In this document: positions 2,151 through 51,495 of the stretch, piece after piece | How positions within the stretch are numbered: the stretch's first letter is position 1 | Layout: every line of letters begins with the position of its first letter | Source of the DNA: Magnetococcales bacterium | Lineage (GTDB): Bacteria > Pseudomonadota > Magnetococcia > Magnetococcales > JADFZT01 | Direction: 5' to 3' | NCBI GenBank assembly: GCA_015232395.1 | Contig: JADFZT010000029.1 | Span: forward strand, 1-51,495 | Length of the DNA: 51,495 bases | The notes under the pieces: generated by a model | Databases searched by the model: none | Seen by the model: only the letters and a program-made list of their open reading frames with translations | Told to the model about the DNA's origin: nothing | Translations under genes and position numbers: made by a program

Positions 2151-3692
2151 TCATTTCTTCCGCCAAACTCTCCTCACCAGACGATATCCCTCATAAAGGG
2201 CGACCATCGCCAGAATATGGAGAAGGGGCTTCAAGGGGATGGCGTAGCGGGGCAGGGGGAGGGTCACCATGTGCAGGGCAGTAACATACATCAGTAGCAG
2301 GCTCATCAAGCGGGGGGCGATCAACCTTTCTGCCACGTTTTGCTTTTGAACTTCAGTTCCTGCTTGATGCTGATCCTGCATTCCTGCCGGATCCTGAGCT
2401 TCTCTCCAAACCATGAAACCCGACGGCAGCCAGACAATCAGGAGCCCCACCCCTCCCAAAATCACCAGGGGCCAATGGAGGAGGTGCATCAGCTGATGGC
2501 TGGCCTTGAAAAAAGGCTCGGTAGCATAGGGGGTGCGGGTGACGGGATAGATGAGGGCATCCCCAGCCCCTTGCACCATGTTCCACGACCAGAGCTGAAT
2601 AGGCTTGCCGATAAAAAACCAGTAACCATGCCGTGCCGGTTCGTTTGAAAAGCGCCGTTGGATCTCCCCAAGCACCGCCCCCATATCCCCTTCCAGGCGG
2701 GGATAGTCTGGATCAAAGTGATAGGGATAGCCAAAGGTTTGAGGGTTTTCCTGATACATCATGCCAGGATAGATGCCGTGGGCCATGTGTCGGGTGAGGG
2801 CAGCTGCCCGGGAGTGGCCCAAATCATGATATTTATTGCGGGCGATCCAAGGTGCAAAAAGCAAAACAATACCCAACAGCAGGATCAAGCCTCGGCGCTT
2901 TCTGGTGCCTGCATCAAAGAGCAACCACACCATACCAACCACAGGAACGCCATAAAGAAGCATCTCCGGGCGCACCAGGGTGGTGAAGCCCAAAAGAAGG
3001 CCACTTAAAAAAAACCACCCCCAACCACGGCTGGATTTCAGGCGACTGGCGACCCAAAAAAAGAGCACCAATAAAAAAGTAAACAGCGATTCTGTCAAAA
3101 GATAGTGATTGCCGGTCACCAGATGGGGGGAGAGGGCGGTGAGGAGAGCGGCGGCCAGAGCGGGCAGCGGGGGAGTGAAACGCAAGCAGGTAAAATAGAC
3201 CAGCACCACGGCCAGGGCAGAGAGGAGCGCCTGGGCGAAGGTGATGTGTAAAAGTTGAGAGTTGATGGTGGGCAGGTCCAGAAAGGGATAGAGAAAAAGA
3301 GGGTATCCCGGTGAGCGGTGGGCGTCGGGTGGAGGTGGGGAGGCCGGATCGATCACCTCTCCTTCACCAGGGGGTGGAATGCCCAGACGGCGCAGATTGT
3401 GACCAGCCAGATATCGACCCAGGGGATCGGCAAAAAATTGATTTAAAAAGGCCTCGCCGCTCTCTGCACTTTTGGGTCGCTGCCCCACCCGACTCGAATA
3501 GATATCATGGTATTTGAGATTATAGGCGGAGAGATAATATTGCAGGGCATCCTTACGCAGAGGTGCAGAAACATCGGTTTTGAACACCGCGCCCAGACGC
3601 AGATGCAGGCCGATGGCGGTGATGGCAACGAGGGCCAGAATGAGCAACAAGCGGGTTGGGCAGTTTGACCTGGAGGGTGTGGGGTGACTCAT
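2151..3692 (-). CDS. GT39/ArnT-like membrane glycosyltransferase
   Basis: A 513-residue polytopic membrane protein. It opens with one TM helix followed by a periplasmic loop holding an acidic KDALQYY motif, as in dolichyl/undecaprenyl-phosphate-sugar glycosyltransferases where the first loop carries a catalytic Asp. A RSPGYPLFLYPF motif follows, then about ten hydrophobic segments and a late LPRYAIPLKP motif, all typical of the GT39/PMT_2 and ArnT superfamily. Such enzymes move a sugar from a polyprenyl phosphate to protein, lipid A or glycan on the periplasmic face. The donor and acceptor cannot be told from sequence. It starts 13 bp after the radical SAM gene stop, so the two are probably co-transcribed. 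Confidence 0.7.
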   Translation of the reverse strand: MSHPTPSRSNCPTRLLLILALVAITAIGLHLRLGAVFKTDVSAPLRKDALQYYLSAYNLKYHDIYSSRVGQRPKSAESGEAFLNQFFADPLGRYLAGHNLRRLGIPPPGEGEVIDPASPPPPDAHRSPGYPLFLYPFLDLPTINSQLLHITFAQALLSALAVVLVYFTCLRFTPPLPALAAALLTALSPHLVTGNHYLLTESLFTFLLVLFFWVASRLKSSRGWGWFFLSGLLLGFTTLVRPEMLLYGVPVVGMVWLLFDAGTRKRRGLILLLGIVLLFAPWIARNKYHDLGHSRAAALTRHMAHGIYPGMMYQENPQTFGYPYHFDPDYPRLEGDMGAVLGEIQRRFSNEPARHGYWFFIGKPIQLWSWNMVQGAGDALIYPVTRTPYATEPFFKASHQLMHLLHWPLVILGGVGLLIVWLPSGFMVWREAQDPAGMQDQHQAGTEVQKQNVAERLIAPRLMSLLLMYVTALHMVTLPLPRYAIPLKPLLHILAMVALYEGYRLVRRVWRKK

Positions 3693-3705
3693 GGTGGGCC
3701 TCCAC

Positions 3706-4878
3706 TCATTTGGGGCTGTCGCCTTGGGCCTTGAGTTTGAGATAGCGTTTCAGGCCATCCAGGTTGGAGCGAAAACCGAGCCGGGGGGAGAAGCGGATGT
3801 TTTCTTCTCCAAAACAATTAAGCCAGCAGCCGGGGCACTCTCCAGCCACCATCTGTTGTCGGGTGTTGCGGGCTGCTTTGGAAAACCAGATCTCATCGAT
3901 GGATTGTTGAAACACATTACCGTAGGGCTTGGTGTGGTGACAAAAAAAAGTATCGCCGTTGATGGCGATGTTGGCCCGTAAAAATCCCACCCGACAGGGG
4001 AGAGGAAAATATTTATCGGTGAGATAATAGTCCGGAATCCGCTTGAGATATTCCACCGAGCTTTTAATGTGGGCATGGCTCTTCTTGAGCTGAATTATCT
4101 CCCCGATGCGTTCTTGAAGGATTCCTTCCCGGGCCAGGCGTTGCAATTCGTTTTGAATGGCCTCCTCTTCCTGAAAAAAGGCCTCATAGGCGGTAAAACG
4201 GACTTCGACGCCCTGTTCCCGGGTGAAGTGGACCATTTCGGTCAGCTGATCGAGATTGGCTGGCAGGATCACCGCGCCGAGACCGATATTATGGTATCCC
4301 GCCTCTTGAAGGTGGGAGATCGCCTTTTTGATTTTGCTGGCCCCTTTGGGCACGCCTCGGATCTCCTGATAGGTTTCGTCCCGGATGGAGTCGATGCCGA
4401 TGGAGATGGAGAGAGGTTGGATCTCTTGGGCCACGAAGGTGGCCCAGCTGGGATTCGACAGGGCCAAGGCGTTGGTGTTGAGGATGATCTCAAAGCCTTT
4501 TTTCTTGGTATAACTCAGGATTTCCCGAATTTCCGGATGGGTGAAGATTTCTCCTGCTGCCACATAGTTGATCAGAGTAACGTTCCAGTTGACCAGATCG
4601 TCCAGCAGAGGGCGCAGGCGCTCAAAGGAAAAACGTTCGCCACTGGTTCGCCAGCAGTCACACATGTTGCATTGCGAATTGCAATTTTCGGTCAGATCAA
4701 TGGAAATCGATACGGGTTTGAAGGGAGACCATCCGGAAGGCCCCAGAAGGGGAACGGAGAGGGTTCGGATGATTTCTTTTAAAATATTCATGGCTTTATA
4801 AAAAAACACCCGGGTTTGCGAAAGGGGGGCGATTGTTGGAGGATCCTGGGGTTTTGCATTTTGCCACCTCAGGGTCAC
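3706..4878 (-). CDS. Radical SAM/SPASM-domain protein
   Basis: A 390-residue protein from a GTG at 4878; a later ATG at 4791 (start MNILKEIIRTL) would give 361 residues and may be the true start. The radical SAM cluster motif is CNSQCNMC (CxxxCxxC), after a ISIDLTENC strand. Downstream are the usual TIM-barrel strands. The C-terminal region has spaced cysteines (CRVGFLRANIAINGDTFFC, ECPGCWLNC) that fit a SPASM auxiliary Fe-S domain. SPASM enzymes modify peptides or proteins, or act in cofactor and glycan pathways. It lies directly upstream of a membrane glycosyltransferase on the same strand, which hints at envelope glycan or lipid work. No precursor peptide is visible nearby. No good ribosome-binding site distinguishes the two starts. 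Confidence 0.75.
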   Translation of the reverse strand: MTLRWQNAKPQDPPTIAPLSQTRVFFYKAMNILKEIIRTLSVPLLGPSGWSPFKPVSISIDLTENCNSQCNMCDCWRTSGERFSFERLRPLLDDLVNWNVTLINYVAAGEIFTHPEIREILSYTKKKGFEIILNTNALALSNPSWATFVAQEIQPLSISIGIDSIRDETYQEIRGVPKGASKIKKAISHLQEAGYHNIGLGAVILPANLDQLTEMVHFTREQGVEVRFTAYEAFFQEEEAIQNELQRLAREGILQERIGEIIQLKKSHAHIKSSVEYLKRIPDYYLTDKYFPLPCRVGFLRANIAINGDTFFCHHTKPYGNVFQQSIDEIWFSKAARNTRQQMVAGECPGCWLNCFGEENIRFSPRLGFRSNLDGLKRYLKLKAQGDSPK

Positions 4879-46394: not shown

Positions 46395-47384
46395 TCAATT
46401 TTTTTCGTCGGTGGCCATGATGAAGCGCAGTTCCACCCGCCTGGAAAAGGCCTCACCCCGTTTGGATGCGGCATAACCCCCGATACGAAAGAGGGAGCGT
46501 CCTTCGGGGTTGCGAAAGTGATCCAGGGCGGGTTGGTGGGCCAAGAGATTCAGAAAGGTCTCTCGGGCGCGCTCGGCCGCCAGACGCCAATTGGCTTGAA
46601 AGCGCTTGCTTCCCGGCTCCGCAGCGATGGAATGGCCGTCGATCACCACCGTTGCCAAATGGACGGGGCTGTCCGATTTTTCACATCCTGTGGGGCTCCC
46701 CACATAGGCCGCAGATGAGACATAACAGGGTAAAATTTTGGCCAGAATATCCGCCAGTTGGCCCAGGACGGCACTCTGTTCGGGATTGAAGGTGGTTGTC
46801 CGGGGGGTAAAATCGAACACCCCCGGCAGGTAGAGCACACCGCTTTCCCGATTGGTCCAGGAGCCGATTCCAAGTAGCGCCAGTTCATTACCCAGTTGCG
46901 TGAGGAGTCGGTTCAACTGGGCGTCCACCTGCTGGGCCTGGGTTGTCCTGGGAATGTGGGCTTTGGCTACCCTTCGGGGTAGAGGCGTGGGTTGAATGGC
47001 CTGGGGTTGGATGGTGGGAGGGGTGGGCCGTTGGCTGACAGGTGGCGGTTTGATGGCCCGGGAGGGCGGTTGAACAGCTGGGCGCGCTGGGGGTTGGGGT
47101 GTGATCACGGGTGATGGTTTGGTGGCCACCTTGACTGGCTGCCGGGGGATGGGTTGGTCCGGGGCTTGGGTGACTGGATTTACCACCATCCCAGGCGGTA
47201 ATGGTGGCTGAACACTGGCTTGGCCGGAGTGGTAGGCCTGGGACACCTCCCACTCCAACTGCTGGGAGGTGTGGTGATTGGAGAGCCCCAGGCCCCATAA
47301 AAACAGAAACATGGCCATAAAGAGCAGACCCGCCACTCCAACGACGATCAGAAACACCGGAGAATTGTATTCAATCCGGATCAT
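46395..47384 (-). CDS. Inner-membrane anchored OmpA-like peptidoglycan-binding protein
   Basis: A 329-residue protein. One TM helix near the N-terminus (FLIVVGVAGLLFMAMFLFLWGLGL) has no charged residue, unlike MotB or ZorB. Residues about 50-150 are Pro/Gln/Ala/Val-rich and disordered, suitable for crossing the periplasm. Residues about 170-325 form an OmpA-like domain: FDFTPRTTTFNPEQSAVLGQLADIL, VVIDGHSIA, NWRLAAERARETFLNLL, and a FRIGGYAASKRGEAFSRRVELRF close. It should tie the inner membrane to peptidoglycan. Its start is 6 bp past the stop of the giant coiled-coil gene, so translation is probably coupled and the two proteins likely work together. Confidence 0.75.
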   Translation of the reverse strand: MIRIEYNSPVFLIVVGVAGLLFMAMFLFLWGLGLSNHHTSQQLEWEVSQAYHSGQASVQPPLPPGMVVNPVTQAPDQPIPRQPVKVATKPSPVITPQPPARPAVQPPSRAIKPPPVSQRPTPPTIQPQAIQPTPLPRRVAKAHIPRTTQAQQVDAQLNRLLTQLGNELALLGIGSWTNRESGVLYLPGVFDFTPRTTTFNPEQSAVLGQLADILAKILPCYVSSAAYVGSPTGCEKSDSPVHLATVVIDGHSIAAEPGSKRFQANWRLAAERARETFLNLLAHQPALDHFRNPEGRSLFRIGGYAASKRGEAFSRRVELRFIMATDEKN

Positions 47385-47390
47385 GATCCT

Positions 47391-50300
47391 CTACCCATCC
47401 TTTTTAGGGGGGAGGCCGGGTCTTCCGTGGGGGAAAAGTTCTCTGATTTTTGAACGCTCCTCCTGACGACGTCTTTCCAAAAAGGCTTCCACCAGTTCCG
47501 GCATGGACTTTTCATGGCGTGTCATGGGCCGGGGCGAAGGGGTGGGCTCGGAATCGGACTCGGACTCATCCTTCGGGGGGAAAGTCATCTCCTCCAGCGT
47601 GCTGCGCAGGGAGTTGGCTGTTTTCAAAAGCCCCCGGTCCAGTTCCGCCACTTTGGGAACATCCTCTTCATAGGGAACCATCAAGGCACTGATCCCCTCC
47701 CCGAAGTCCCAGATCAAGCCCACAACCCGGGGATCAGTCACGGGTGTGCCAGCCTGGAGGTGGGCAATGAGCGTTTGCAGAATATCGTTCAGGGGCGCGG
47801 CACGATAGCCGAACTGATCTTCCAGATGCATGAAGATCCGCTTTAACAGCTCCAGCAGCGTACCCCCATCAATTCCTCCCGTTGTTCCGGAAAGTTTCAG
47901 CAACATCTGCTCCAGGCTACCGGTATTCGTAGCCTGATGCTCCAGAAGCAGGGGATCTTCTGCGTCCGATACCTCTTTTGTTTCCCCAGAGGGTGTTTGG
48001 GGCTCTTCCAGGGGTTCAGTTTCGACCACTGCCGGTGGTGGCTCCACAGGTGATTCAGCCGGCTTGGTAGCCTCGGAAATGGCCGATTTGAGTCTTTCTT
48101 CCAGGGAACTCCCCAGCTCTTGGGCGGCATCCTGAAGGGCGGCGGTCACCTGCTCCTTGGAAAGTCCTTCCGGAATCCAGTCGGCCATTTCCGAAAGGGC
48201 TGAGTGGATCACCTCCTCCAGATCTTCCGATACCTGATGGGTTTCGGCCTTCACCATGGCACGCACCTGATCTTCAGTGCTCATACCCTGGCGCAGGGAT
48301 GCCATCAAACGCTCAGTCTCGGTTTTGACCACCTTTTGCACCTGATCTTCGGTGCTCATATCCTGGCGCAGGCTGGTGGCTAAACGTTCTGTTTCCGCTT
48401 TGACCGCTTTTTGCACCTGATCTTCGGTGCTCATACCCTGGCGCAGGGTTTCAGCCAGGCGGTCTGTTTCCGCTTTGACCACCTTCTGAACCTGATCTTC
48501 GGTACGTATATCCTGGCGCAGGGTTTCCGCCAAACGATCGGTTTCCCCTTTGACGGCTGCCCGCATCTCCTGCTCGGTACCAAACTCAGCTCGCAGGGTA
48601 TCCACCAGATGTTCAGTCTCCCCTTTCACCACAGCCCGAATTTGCTCCTCGGTGCCGAACTCAGCGCGCAGGGTATCCACCAGGCGCTCTGTTGCGGCGG
48701 TGATCAAGGTGTGCATTTCCGGCACGGTAGCGAACTCAGCCCGCAAGGCATCCACCAGATGGCCAGCTTCTGCCCGCACCACCGAACGCATTTGCCCTTC
48801 GGTGTTGAGGCCTGCCTTTATTTCAGCACTCAGAGGCCCGGTCTCCGCCCGTAAGGCGTCCACCAGATGGCCAGCTTCCGCCCGCACCACCGAACGTACC
48901 TGCTCTTCGGTGTTGAGGCCGGCTTTTATTTCAGCACTCAGAGATCCTGTCTCTGCCCGGAGTGCTCCTCGAACCTGTTCCTCAATGGCGAGCCCCTGAA
49001 TGACTTTATCCACCAGTCGATCGGTCTCAGCCTTCACCACCGAACGTACCTGCTCTTCCACGGCAGGCCCTCTCCCCAGGGTGGCAATCAGTCGATCGGT
49101 TTCAGCCTTCACCACCGAACGCACCTGCTCTTCCACGGCAGGCTTGGTATCCAGGGTGGCAATCAGGCGATCTGTCTCGGATTTCACCACCGAACGCATC
49201 TGCTCCTCGGTGTTGAGTCCAGACTGGATTGCAGTGCTGAGTGGAGCGGTTTCTGCCCGCACGGCGCCCCGAACCCGATCCTCAATGGCGAGGTTTTGAA
49301 CGATCTCATCCACCAGGCGATCGGTCTCGGCTTTCACCACCGAACGCATCTGCTCTTCCATGGCAGGTTCGGTGCCCAGGATGGCGATCAGTCGGTCGGT
49401 CTCGGCCTTCACGACCGAACGTACTTGTTCTTCCACACTGTGCTTGGCATCCAGCGCTGCCATCATGCGGTCGGTTTCACCCTTGACCACAGCCACAAAC
49501 GGCTCGCTGTCCGAGCTTGTCTTCAGGGTTTCAGACACTTCCCCCAAAGCCACTTCCAGGCCCCGGGTGTGGTCCAGCAGACGCTCTCCATGGAACGACA
49601 GGGTGTGATTCATTGCATCTGCCGTGGGCAGGGAGGCGAGTCCTTCGGAAATGCGATCTCCCTGGTCCTGCACCACCGAGATCAATTCCTGACGCAGAGG
49701 GGCCAGATTGAGCTGTTGGGCCAGACGTTCCCCCTCTTCCCGTACCGCTTCCAGAACCGGCTCCAGTGTCAGCCGGTCATTTAATTCACCGAGCAGACGT
49801 TTGGTGCCCGTCTGCATCACCTCTTCGAGCAATCCAGCGATGGGGCGATTCCCCAAACCATCGAACAGCCCATCTGCCTGCTGACGGACCGATTGGACGA
49901 TCTCCTTGCGGAAGCCTTCCAGATCCAACTCCCGGGTCAGTCGCTCTCCCTCTTCCCGAACAGCACTCAGCACCGGAGCCAGGCTCAACCGCTCGCTCAG
50001 CTCCGTCACCACCCGGGTGCTTTCCCGGCGGACGGCTGCGGTCAAGGCAGCCTCTGAGGGACGTTCGGCCAGCTGGTTGCTCAACCGATCGGCTTGTTGC
50101 CCAATCAGTCCCTCCACCTCTTTACGGAATGGTCCCAGGTCGAGGGCGTTGGAGAGCCGTTGGTTTTCTCCCTGAATCACTTGGGAGAGGGCTTCCACCG
50201 TGGGTTGGTCTTGAAGCTGTTGGCTTAAGCGGTCTGTCTGTTCCCGGAGAGTGGCCACCACCTCTTCCCGGAACGGCCCCAGATCCATCCGCTTGGCCAG

Positions 50301-51495
50301 ATGACGGCTCTCCTCCTTCAAGGCGCTCACGATTGGGTCCAGTGTGAGTTTGCGGCTCAGAGTTTCCCCGAGGGATTCATTTTCAGCCCGCATCAGGGTT
50401 TGCAGATGGGTGGTGGTGGGCAGGTTGGCGAGTTTGGTATTCAGACCCTGGCCATGGCGCTCCACGGTATCGATCAACACCTCCCGCAACGAGGACAGGT
50501 CAAGGTGTTTGGCCAGGCGTTCGCTTTCGGCTCGCACCATGACCCCGATGGCTTCGCTGGTGGGGCGTTGGGCCAGTTCGGCGTTGATCCGGTCGGAATG
50601 GGACTGAACAGCCTGGAGAATAGCCTCACTGGAGGCTGAGGGATCCAAGCGCGCTGCCAGCTGTTCTCCGGCTTCCGATACCACTCGCTTCAGGGTTTGT
50701 TCGGAAGGTTGTTGGGCCAGTTTGTCGCTGATCTGCTCAATCTCTCCCCGGACGCCATCGAGCACTTGCTCCTGGAGAGATTCCAGGTCTGCACGATCCA
50801 GCTGCAATCGGGCCTCTTCCACCACCTCACGCAAGAGGGTAATGGAGGGCATCTCTTCCAGTTTGCCACCGATCAGGTCGGCCTGATCCTGAACCGCACC
50901 GATCATCTCATCGCTGAAAGATTGCAGGCCTTGCCGGGAGAGACGGTCGATCTCCCCACGAATGGTCTGCTCCAGGGCTTCCAGGGAGGGGGGCTGGGAA
51001 ATTTGGTCAGAGAGACGGTCAATGCGAGCTGAGACCCCTTCGATCACCTCTTTTTGCAGGAGGGCCAAGGATTGATCGGCCAGCTGTCGGCTCTCTTCCC
51101 GGACCGCTGAAACCACCGGGGTCAGGTCGATGGCCTCGTTCAGGCGGGTTTTGAGTATTTCGTTTTCAGCCCGCACCACTTCGTTCAGGCTGGCGTCACT
51201 TAAGGTGAGGCGCTGGGTGAGGGTTTTGTGGAGCCGGTCGATCTCATTCCTGACGGTACCGATGATCTGATCGTCTGTGGAAATCCGTTGCAGCTCCCGA
51301 CCCAAGCGTTCACCCGCCCCATCCACCAAATCACGAACCGTGTGGGAGGAGGGCAGTTGGTTTAGTTGTCCGGAGAGGCTTTCAGTCTGCTCTTGTATGG
51401 CCCGGTTCAGGCGTTTGCTGGCGGAGTCCACGACCGACTGCACGGCTTCGGGTGTGAGCTGGCGGTCCAGTTTTGTGGAGAGGGTTTGCGCCTGC
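47391..51495 (-). CDS. Giant repeat coiled-coil protein (N-terminus beyond right edge)
   Basis: The frame is open from the window edge to the stop at 47391, at least 1367 codons. Almost all of it is predicted helix with few aromatics and no membrane segment. The N-terminal visible part (49509-51495) repeats every 24 residues, often as 72-residue triplets, with ExxRL and SAVREEGERL motifs. The next part (48201-49508) is an array of 25-residue units such as EEQVRSVVKAETDRLIATL. It is followed by an acidic Pro-rich linker and a folded C-terminal domain (about 47560-47890) of unknown family with FGYRAAPLNDILQTLI. The tail is basic and hydrophilic. I do not recognise the family. The adjacent OmpA-domain gene points to an envelope-associated filament or spacer. 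Confidence 0.75.
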   Translation of the reverse strand, partial: QAQTLSTKLDRQLTPEAVQSVVDSASKRLNRAIQEQTESLSGQLNQLPSSHTVRDLVDGAGERLGRELQRISTDDQIIGTVRNEIDRLHKTLTQRLTLSDASLNEVVRAENEILKTRLNEAIDLTPVVSAVREESRQLADQSLALLQKEVIEGVSARIDRLSDQISQPPSLEALEQTIRGEIDRLSRQGLQSFSDEMIGAVQDQADLIGGKLEEMPSITLLREVVEEARLQLDRADLESLQEQVLDGVRGEIEQISDKLAQQPSEQTLKRVVSEAGEQLAARLDPSASSEAILQAVQSHSDRINAELAQRPTSEAIGVMVRAESERLAKHLDLSSLREVLIDTVERHGQGLNTKLANLPTTTHLQTLMRAENESLGETLSRKLTLDPIVSALKEESRHLAKRMDLGPFREEVVATLREQTDRLSQQLQDQPTVEALSQVIQGENQRLSNALDLGPFRKEVEGLIGQQADRLSNQLAERPSEAALTAAVRRESTRVVTELSERLSLAPVLSAVREEGERLTRELDLEGFRKEIVQSVRQQADGLFDGLGNRPIAGLLEEVMQTGTKRLLGELNDRLTLEPVLEAVREEGERLAQQLNLAPLRQELISVVQDQGDRISEGLASLPTADAMNHTLSFHGERLLDHTRGLEVALGEVSETLKTSSDSEPFVAVVKGETDRMMAALDAKHSVEEQVRSVVKAETDRLIAILGTEPAMEEQMRSVVKAETDRLVDEIVQNLAIEDRVRGAVRAETAPLSTAIQSGLNTEEQMRSVVKSETDRLIATLDTKPAVEEQVRSVVKAETDRLIATLGRGPAVEEQVRSVVKAETDRLVDKVIQGLAIEEQVRGALRAETGSLSAEIKAGLNTEEQVRSVVRAEAGHLVDALRAETGPLSAEIKAGLNTEGQMRSVVRAEAGHLVDALRAEFATVPEMHTLITAATERLVDTLRAEFGTEEQIRAVVKGETEHLVDTLRAEFGTEQEMRAAVKGETDRLAETLRQDIRTEDQVQKVVKAETDRLAETLRQGMSTEDQVQKAVKAETERLATSLRQDMSTEDQVQKVVKTETERLMASLRQGMSTEDQVRAMVKAETHQVSEDLEEVIHSALSEMADWIPEGLSKEQVTAALQDAAQELGSSLEERLKSAISEATKPAESPVEPPPAVVETEPLEEPQTPSGETKEVSDAEDPLLLEHQATNTGSLEQMLLKLSGTTGGIDGGTLLELLKRIFMHLEDQFGYRAAPLNDILQTLIAHLQAGTPVTDPRVVGLIWDFGEGISALMVPYEEDVPKVAELDRGLLKTANSLRSTLEEMTFPPKDESESDSEPTPSPRPMTRHEKSMPELVEAFLERRRQEERSKIRELFPHGRPGLPPKKDG
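48201..49508 (-). repeat. 17 units of 25 residues plus one 11-residue insertion
   Basis: The array is 436 codons, exactly 17 x 25 + 11. Units align on a (E)EQVRSVVKAETDRL core. Units 2-4 and 6-8 share the order of tail sequences (PAM/PAV, LAI, LNT), which indicates duplication of a 75-residue block. Unit 9 carries the 11-residue insertion. A 25-residue period equals 7+7+11, typical of a coiled coil mixing heptads with a hendecad. Confidence 0.85.

Follow-up and report, generated by a model that had tools for sequence, protein, structure and literature searches.

ZorAB-type complexes are known from phage defence. In the type I Zorya ZorAB core (PDB 8QYD; 8VVN, Shewanella ANA-3), ZorA combines an N-terminal transmembrane (TM) domain with a long cytoplasmic tail, ZorB combines a single TM helix with a periplasmic peptidoglycan-binding domain, and the two genes are adjacent; the locus described here shares these traits, the ZorA N-terminal domain by way of a contig only putatively assigned to it. 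The critical ZorB Asp is surrounded by a ring of Ser/Thr residues (PMC11890865). How magnetosomes are held against magnetic torque in magnetotactic cocci, and how this torque reaches the cell body, are open questions. In 'Ca. Magnetaquicoccus inordinatus' UR-1, the magnetosome island carries an EH-signature / MotB / apolipoprotein-like trio, presented as unknown island genes and not named Zorya-type, and the protein linking MamK and the magnetosome in this organism is unclear (PMC6783814).

The locus lies at the right-hand end of a window, the whole 51,495-nucleotide stretch that was analysed, which comes from contig JADFZT010000029.1 (C29) of a Magnetococcales genome (GCA_015232395.1, here G000). 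With about an even chance of being right, its two reading frames can be read as the terminal part of a giant zorA-like gene with its zorB-like partner, together encoding a wall-anchored giant tether derived from a Zorya motor, here probably passive, which would serve magnetosome positioning or magnetotaxis.

The giant reading frame and its small partner

The two frames are adjacent on the same (minus) strand and 6 bp apart (Table 1). The giant frame stops at the window edge because a scaffold gap of 100 N (C29:51496-51595) lies directly beyond it. Past the gap, the repeats run on in another frame to the contig end at 53288, and the true N-terminus of the giant is therefore on another contig. 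Internal periodicity is strongest between residues 600 and 1100, where self-identity at lag 25 reaches 0.44 versus 0.08 expected (z = 28.8); residues 1-600 follow a 24-residue period, and the stretch beyond the window a 35-residue one. Since Gly, Pro and Asn are present at the repeat junctions, the periodicity does not prove an uninterrupted coiled coil. Comparison of the giant frame with Pfam, PHROGs and NCBIfam gave no useful match. The beyond-window repeat, searched in its own genome, matched only C29 itself, so the N-terminus was sought via domains instead.

Table 1. Features of the locus, in window coordinates
Feature	Position	Strand	Basis
Giant ZorA-like cytoplasmic tail, C-terminal 1367+ codons	47391..51494	-	ORF call; no stop up to window edge; collinear with the G022 and G027 giants
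24-residue-period part of tail	49695..51494	-	z ~8 at lags 24, 48 and 72
25-residue repeat block of tail, ~17 units	48225..49502	-	z = 28.8 at lag 25
Tail-tip domain, ~100 residues, C-terminal and conserved in long-tailed ZorAs of Magnetococcales	47535..47924	-	Matches to giants' tips; profile search
ZorB-like protein, 329 aa, ATG start	46395..47384	-	PADLOC ZorB1; PDB profile search; Foldseek
Predicted TM helix of ZorB-like protein, without stator acid (G/V in place of Asp/Glu)	47292..47360	-	TM prediction/alignment
OmpA/MotB-like domain; cysteines C220 and C234 nearly invariant	46401..46949	-	Alignment; model; Foldseek

The small protein consists of one TM helix (residues 10-28), a Pro-rich linker and a C-terminal OmpA-like peptidoglycan-binding domain. 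It matches PADLOC ZorB1 at 3.5e-32, and a profile of 34 ZorB-like proteins of Magnetococcales finds ZorB in the PDB (8vvn_B 1.6e-29; 8qyd_F 2.8e-17). The AlphaFold2 model of the protein has a mean pLDDT of 78, with values above 90 across the greater part of the C-terminal domain, and the top three Foldseek matches of this model are ZorB chains, with 8vvn_B and 8qyd_F leading. The OmpA-like assignment is secured by the ZorB/MotB profiles and the fold, since the Pfam OmpA match alone is sub-threshold (0.037). Judged by its profile matches and predicted fold, the protein belongs to the ZorB family. The type VI secretion protein TssL was rejected as an identity (17.8 bits versus a cut-off of 139.8).

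The front of the giant was assigned by elimination. G000 contains two long-tail ZorA N-termini, on contigs C83 and C97, and two tip domains, on C83 and C29. C83 carries one of each, as a complete paralogue in the order mamS, mamT, a 1994-aa ZorA (ZorA1 N-terminal domain, 4e-19) and a ZorB-like protein, which leaves C97 and C29 for one another. On C97, the ZorA N-terminus (ZorA1 5.5e-25) sits on a 2393-aa frame that runs off the contig. The assignment also draws on the tip match and on collinearity: the C-terminal domain of the window frame matches the C-termini of ZorAs of 3.3-4.6 kaa in genomes G022, G027, G019, G028 and G004 (4.8e-18 to 3e-9), and the repeats of this frame can be aligned collinearly with residues ~2,700-3,900 of the 4.1-kaa ZorAs of G022 and G027. 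The tree of ZorA N-terminal domains places C97 in one group with the G022, G027, G019 and G028 giants (99/99). These sequence matches mark the window frame as the probable tail end of a giant ZorA-like protein, and C97 is very probably its front, with a joined length of at least ~4,400 aa across contigs that the assembly leaves physically unjoined.

Searched against the PDB at E<=0.01, the ZorA N-terminal profile matched only ZorA-type chains (8qyy 1.5e-26), and a plain MotAB or TolQR pair was rejected on this ground; the model of the domain likewise has ZorA 8qyd_A as its best match, with TolQ/ExbB folds ranking lower. The tip domain was found in 16 of 30 near-complete Magnetococcales and elsewhere in 4 marginal matches (E > 2e-4), and thus appears lineage-specific and almost confined to this order. 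Genome G007 encodes a 287-aa tip-domain protein without a TM helix, placed in the zorA slot after mamT (L227:3187-4050). Together, the domain and this tip-only protein point to the tip as a docking module, for which the magnetosome, MamK or a chemoreceptor are candidate targets.

The initial annotation had described a giant 25-residue-repeat coiled coil of at least 1367 codons and, 6 bp on, an OmpA-type protein with a single TM helix free of the stator Asp. Both frames, the repeat, the acid-free helix and, through profiles and fold, the OmpA domain are all present; of the coiled coil, the periodicity stands and the continuity does not. Its comparison with the wall-anchored logic of MotAB and ZorAB agrees with the ZorA- and ZorB-type matches, and the channel part that it placed beyond the right edge corresponds to the N-terminus assigned to C97. 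Extension of the contig to the right did recover further repeats and, owing to the gap, no N-terminus on C29 itself. An upstream sequence of a known family with no membrane partner, such as an adhesin or a chromosome-segregation protein, had been named as the contrary outcome; this candidate was rejected, as no such match appeared and the assigned N-terminus is that of ZorA. The view of the pair as an unnamed, undescribed apparatus gave way to its placement, by sequence and predicted fold, in the ZorA/ZorB family.

Long-tailed ZorAB pairs and magnetosome gene clusters

Long-tailed ZorAB pairs are general in Magnetococcales and lie in or beside magnetosome gene clusters. The ZorA N-terminal profile matches all 30 Magnetococcales genomes of at least 90% completeness, versus 34 of the 269 genomes from elsewhere in the phylum, where every match scores 161 bits or less. 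A ZorA- or ZorB-like gene lies within 21 kb of mamQ on the same contig in 23 of 44 mamQ genomes, with ~1.2 expected by random placement when related genomes are counted as independent. Gene order is recurrent as well. G011 has mamQ-mamB-mamS-mamT-zorA (1705 aa)-zorB (286 aa), followed by a 200-aa protein and then by a protein of 1420 aa with relatives that terminate in PilZ, and the start mamS-mamT-zorA is common to G018, G023, G010, G009, G020, G004, G025 and C83 of the window's own genome. The zorA-zorB pair adjoins mamK in G008, G017, G022 and G027, the giant of G027 ending ~60 bp from it, and zorB is near mamK in G030. A search of the open-licence literature found no text that brings magnetosomes and ZorA together.

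The 51-kb window itself contains no mam genes, and around the pair lie genes for chemoreceptors and housekeeping functions. This copy is connected with magnetosomes through its family, through the G027 giant near mamK, and through a PilZ-protein gene, a recurrent zorAB neighbour in magnetosome clusters, which adjoins the presumed N-terminal half on C97. The position of the family beside magnet-organelle genes hints at an unrecognised cell-wall-anchored magnetosome machine.

Further observations were made in these neighbourhoods. The window's genome has three mamK genes (contigs C5, C36 and C49), and its C83 run mamS-mamT-zorA-zorB leads into genes that appear, by eye, to encode type II secretion/pseudopilin proteins (L041:296-7386). 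Two very long ZorB-like frames, of 2718 and 1673 aa (L045:1320-9476, L046:7641-12662), each have one N-terminal TM helix and two separate OmpA-type matches. A YcjX-like (DUF463) gene directly follows zorB or zorA at three loci (L047:9443-10882, L048:11205-12632, L112:2229-3644; Pfam on the first, phmmer homologues). A second kind of long-tail ZorAB has the canonical TM Asp, is split by CYTH-like and HDOD-like genes (named by eye; L042:8058-17009, L123) and, in the ZorA tree, branches well away from the clade of the window copy.

Loss of the transmembrane acid and the proposed tether

The initial annotation had suggested that conservation of the two genes as neighbours be checked across genomes, and such pairs do occur. 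In G020, a ZorB-like protein of 379 aa comes 7 bp after the tip-bearing half of the giant, and in G004 a ZorB-like frame begins behind the giant and is truncated; no ZorB adjoins the giants of G022, G027, G019 and G028. The ZorBs paired with giants in G004 and G020 retain the TM Asp, whereas the TM helix of the window ZorB contains no D/E at all. The acid, whose alignment column was read from the flanking letters, is present as Asp/Glu in 31 of the 34 ZorB rows. Because the orthologous pairs of G004 and G020 keep Asp and most paralogues have Glu/Asp, the loss is local to the window copy. On the ZorA side, with numbering taken from the alignment to the ZorA PDB chain, the polar-ring equivalent of T147 is Thr/Ser in all 34 rows, and at the S184 equivalent C97 has Ala and the G004 and G020 giants have Ser. 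The S184-to-Ala change lends weak support to an ion-dead reading, since Ser also varies in acid-bearing pairs. On contig C54 of the window's genome, mamB is followed by an orphan zorB-like gene that lacks a zorA beside it and encodes Glu in the TM helix (L040:10177-11478).

By homology, five ZorA N-termini (as on C97) and two ZorB TM helices would form a MotAB-like 5:2 core in the inner membrane. ZorB would grip the peptidoglycan, and the ZorA tail, with ~4,000 residues, would project deep into the cytoplasm and end in the tip domain. Such a tail could span ~0.6 micrometre if helical throughout, although Gly/Pro at the repeat junctions may break the helix. Because the ZorB acid is lost and the ZorA of C97 has Ala at one of two polar-ring positions, the window copy would most likely act as a passive wall-anchored tether or a tension sensor. 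It could position magnetosomes or the MamK scaffold, or hand torque to the envelope. The ion-binding acid is retained by most members of the family, and these may be motors.

Several other readings bear on the same evidence. The adjacent chemoreceptors could indicate a signalling machine for magnetotaxis, in which wall tension or magnetic torque would pass via ZorB and the tail to these receptors. Downstream, the same strand carries genes for two methyl-accepting chemotaxis proteins (MCPs), of which one has CZB domains. A close MCP homologue stands beside a zorB-like gene in G004 (L128), other pairs have CZB or Hpt domains in their vicinity, and the PilZ protein is a recurrent neighbour. Nevertheless, 287 bp separate the pair from the start of the first MCP, so that cotranscription is not required, the adjacency is found in two genomes only, and several MCPs are encoded in the window genome; the chemoreceptor reading is regarded as unlikely. 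A general scaffold of cell envelope or cell shape in these cocci, unrelated to magnetosomes, would suit a copy located away from known mam genes. This is considered quite unlikely, given the PilZ-protein gene beside the presumed N-terminal half and the position of the G027 giant relative to mamK. An ion-driven motor could, in principle, be restored if an acid-bearing ZorB from elsewhere, for example the Glu-bearing C54 orphan, entered a mixed ZorB dimer. The existence of this zorB without its own zorA, and of giants in G022 and G027 that likewise lack an adjacent zorB, favours such an arrangement, but the giant has a partner of its own only 6 bp away and the polar-ring Ser is replaced by Ala in C97, though with the variability already described; a mixed dimer is considered very unlikely.

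A variant or remnant of the Zorya anti-phage system, in which ZorAB would sense envelope disturbance and call an effector encoded elsewhere, is suggested by the clear ZorA and ZorB homology and by the ZorC-like gene that some magnetosome-cluster pairs retain. Such genes were seen beside ZorAB at L111:3234-4526 and ~14 similar loci. The one examined, in G003, matches ZorC in its N-terminal part only, continues with an Hpt-like domain and has no ZorD-like frame nearby. Long-tail pairs near magnetosome clusters are mostly without ZorC, and in several families their positions within mam operons are fixed. In G000, no protein matched ZorC (EH signature, PF15611) at E<=0.001. No ZorD-like frame was seen beside long-tail pairs in the neighbourhoods examined; for the window pair, the downstream genes are the MCPs and the upstream side is lost in the gap. 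Complete zorABCD exists separately in the order, in G031 (ZorB, ZorC, ZorD and ZorA all matched), and ZorC-positive Zorya-type loci also occur in G004, G020 and G021. Taken together, a defence role for the window pair seems very unlikely, and the enrichment in defence islands raised by the initial annotation found no evidence: the genome gave no ZorC match, no ZorD-like frame was seen next to the pair, and the family is linked with magnetosome clusters.

The wall-anchored tether is the preferred reading. A ZorAB-type complex inside the mam operon, equipped with a conserved tip domain, is a candidate for holding magnetosomes, and in this lineage such complexes look like organelle or housekeeping parts. 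PADLOC-type ZorA/ZorB matches alone should therefore be taken as homology and not as defence. A broader proposal, put forward tentatively and at less than even chance, is a second use of the Zorya-type motor in magnetotactic cocci: peptidoglycan-anchored ZorAB, with ZorA of up to ~4,500 residues and a tip, would hold, move or sense the magnetosome chain, the window copy being an ion-dead giant tether.

Comparison with described systems

The proposed role in magnetosome positioning resembles that of MamK, MamJ and MamY, the magnetoskeleton proteins that act in magnetosome positioning; none of these is known to be a peptidoglycan-anchored 5:2 motor-type complex. The pair shares stator logic and the MotB-like domain fold with the MotAB/PomAB flagellar stators, and is unlike them in its huge tail, in sequence matches to ZorA-type PDB chains only, and in the missing TM Asp of the window copy. 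The UR-1 genes have the domains of a ZorC-ZorB-ZorA trio and belong to the same broad family as the window pair. This branch is nevertheless distinct, with a ZorC-like gene, a shorter ZorA, the canonical TM Asp and a separate clade.

The closest described relative is the type I Zorya ZorAB core. Compared with the entire ZorA of 8QYD, which has 729 residues, the tail alone would have ~4,000 here, and it ends in a tip domain of its own. The window copy has no TM acid and its genome no ZorC match; no ZorD was seen next to it, and the family is linked with magnetosome clusters. This variant of a ZorAB-type machine stands in a setting that was not found described in the open-licence literature.
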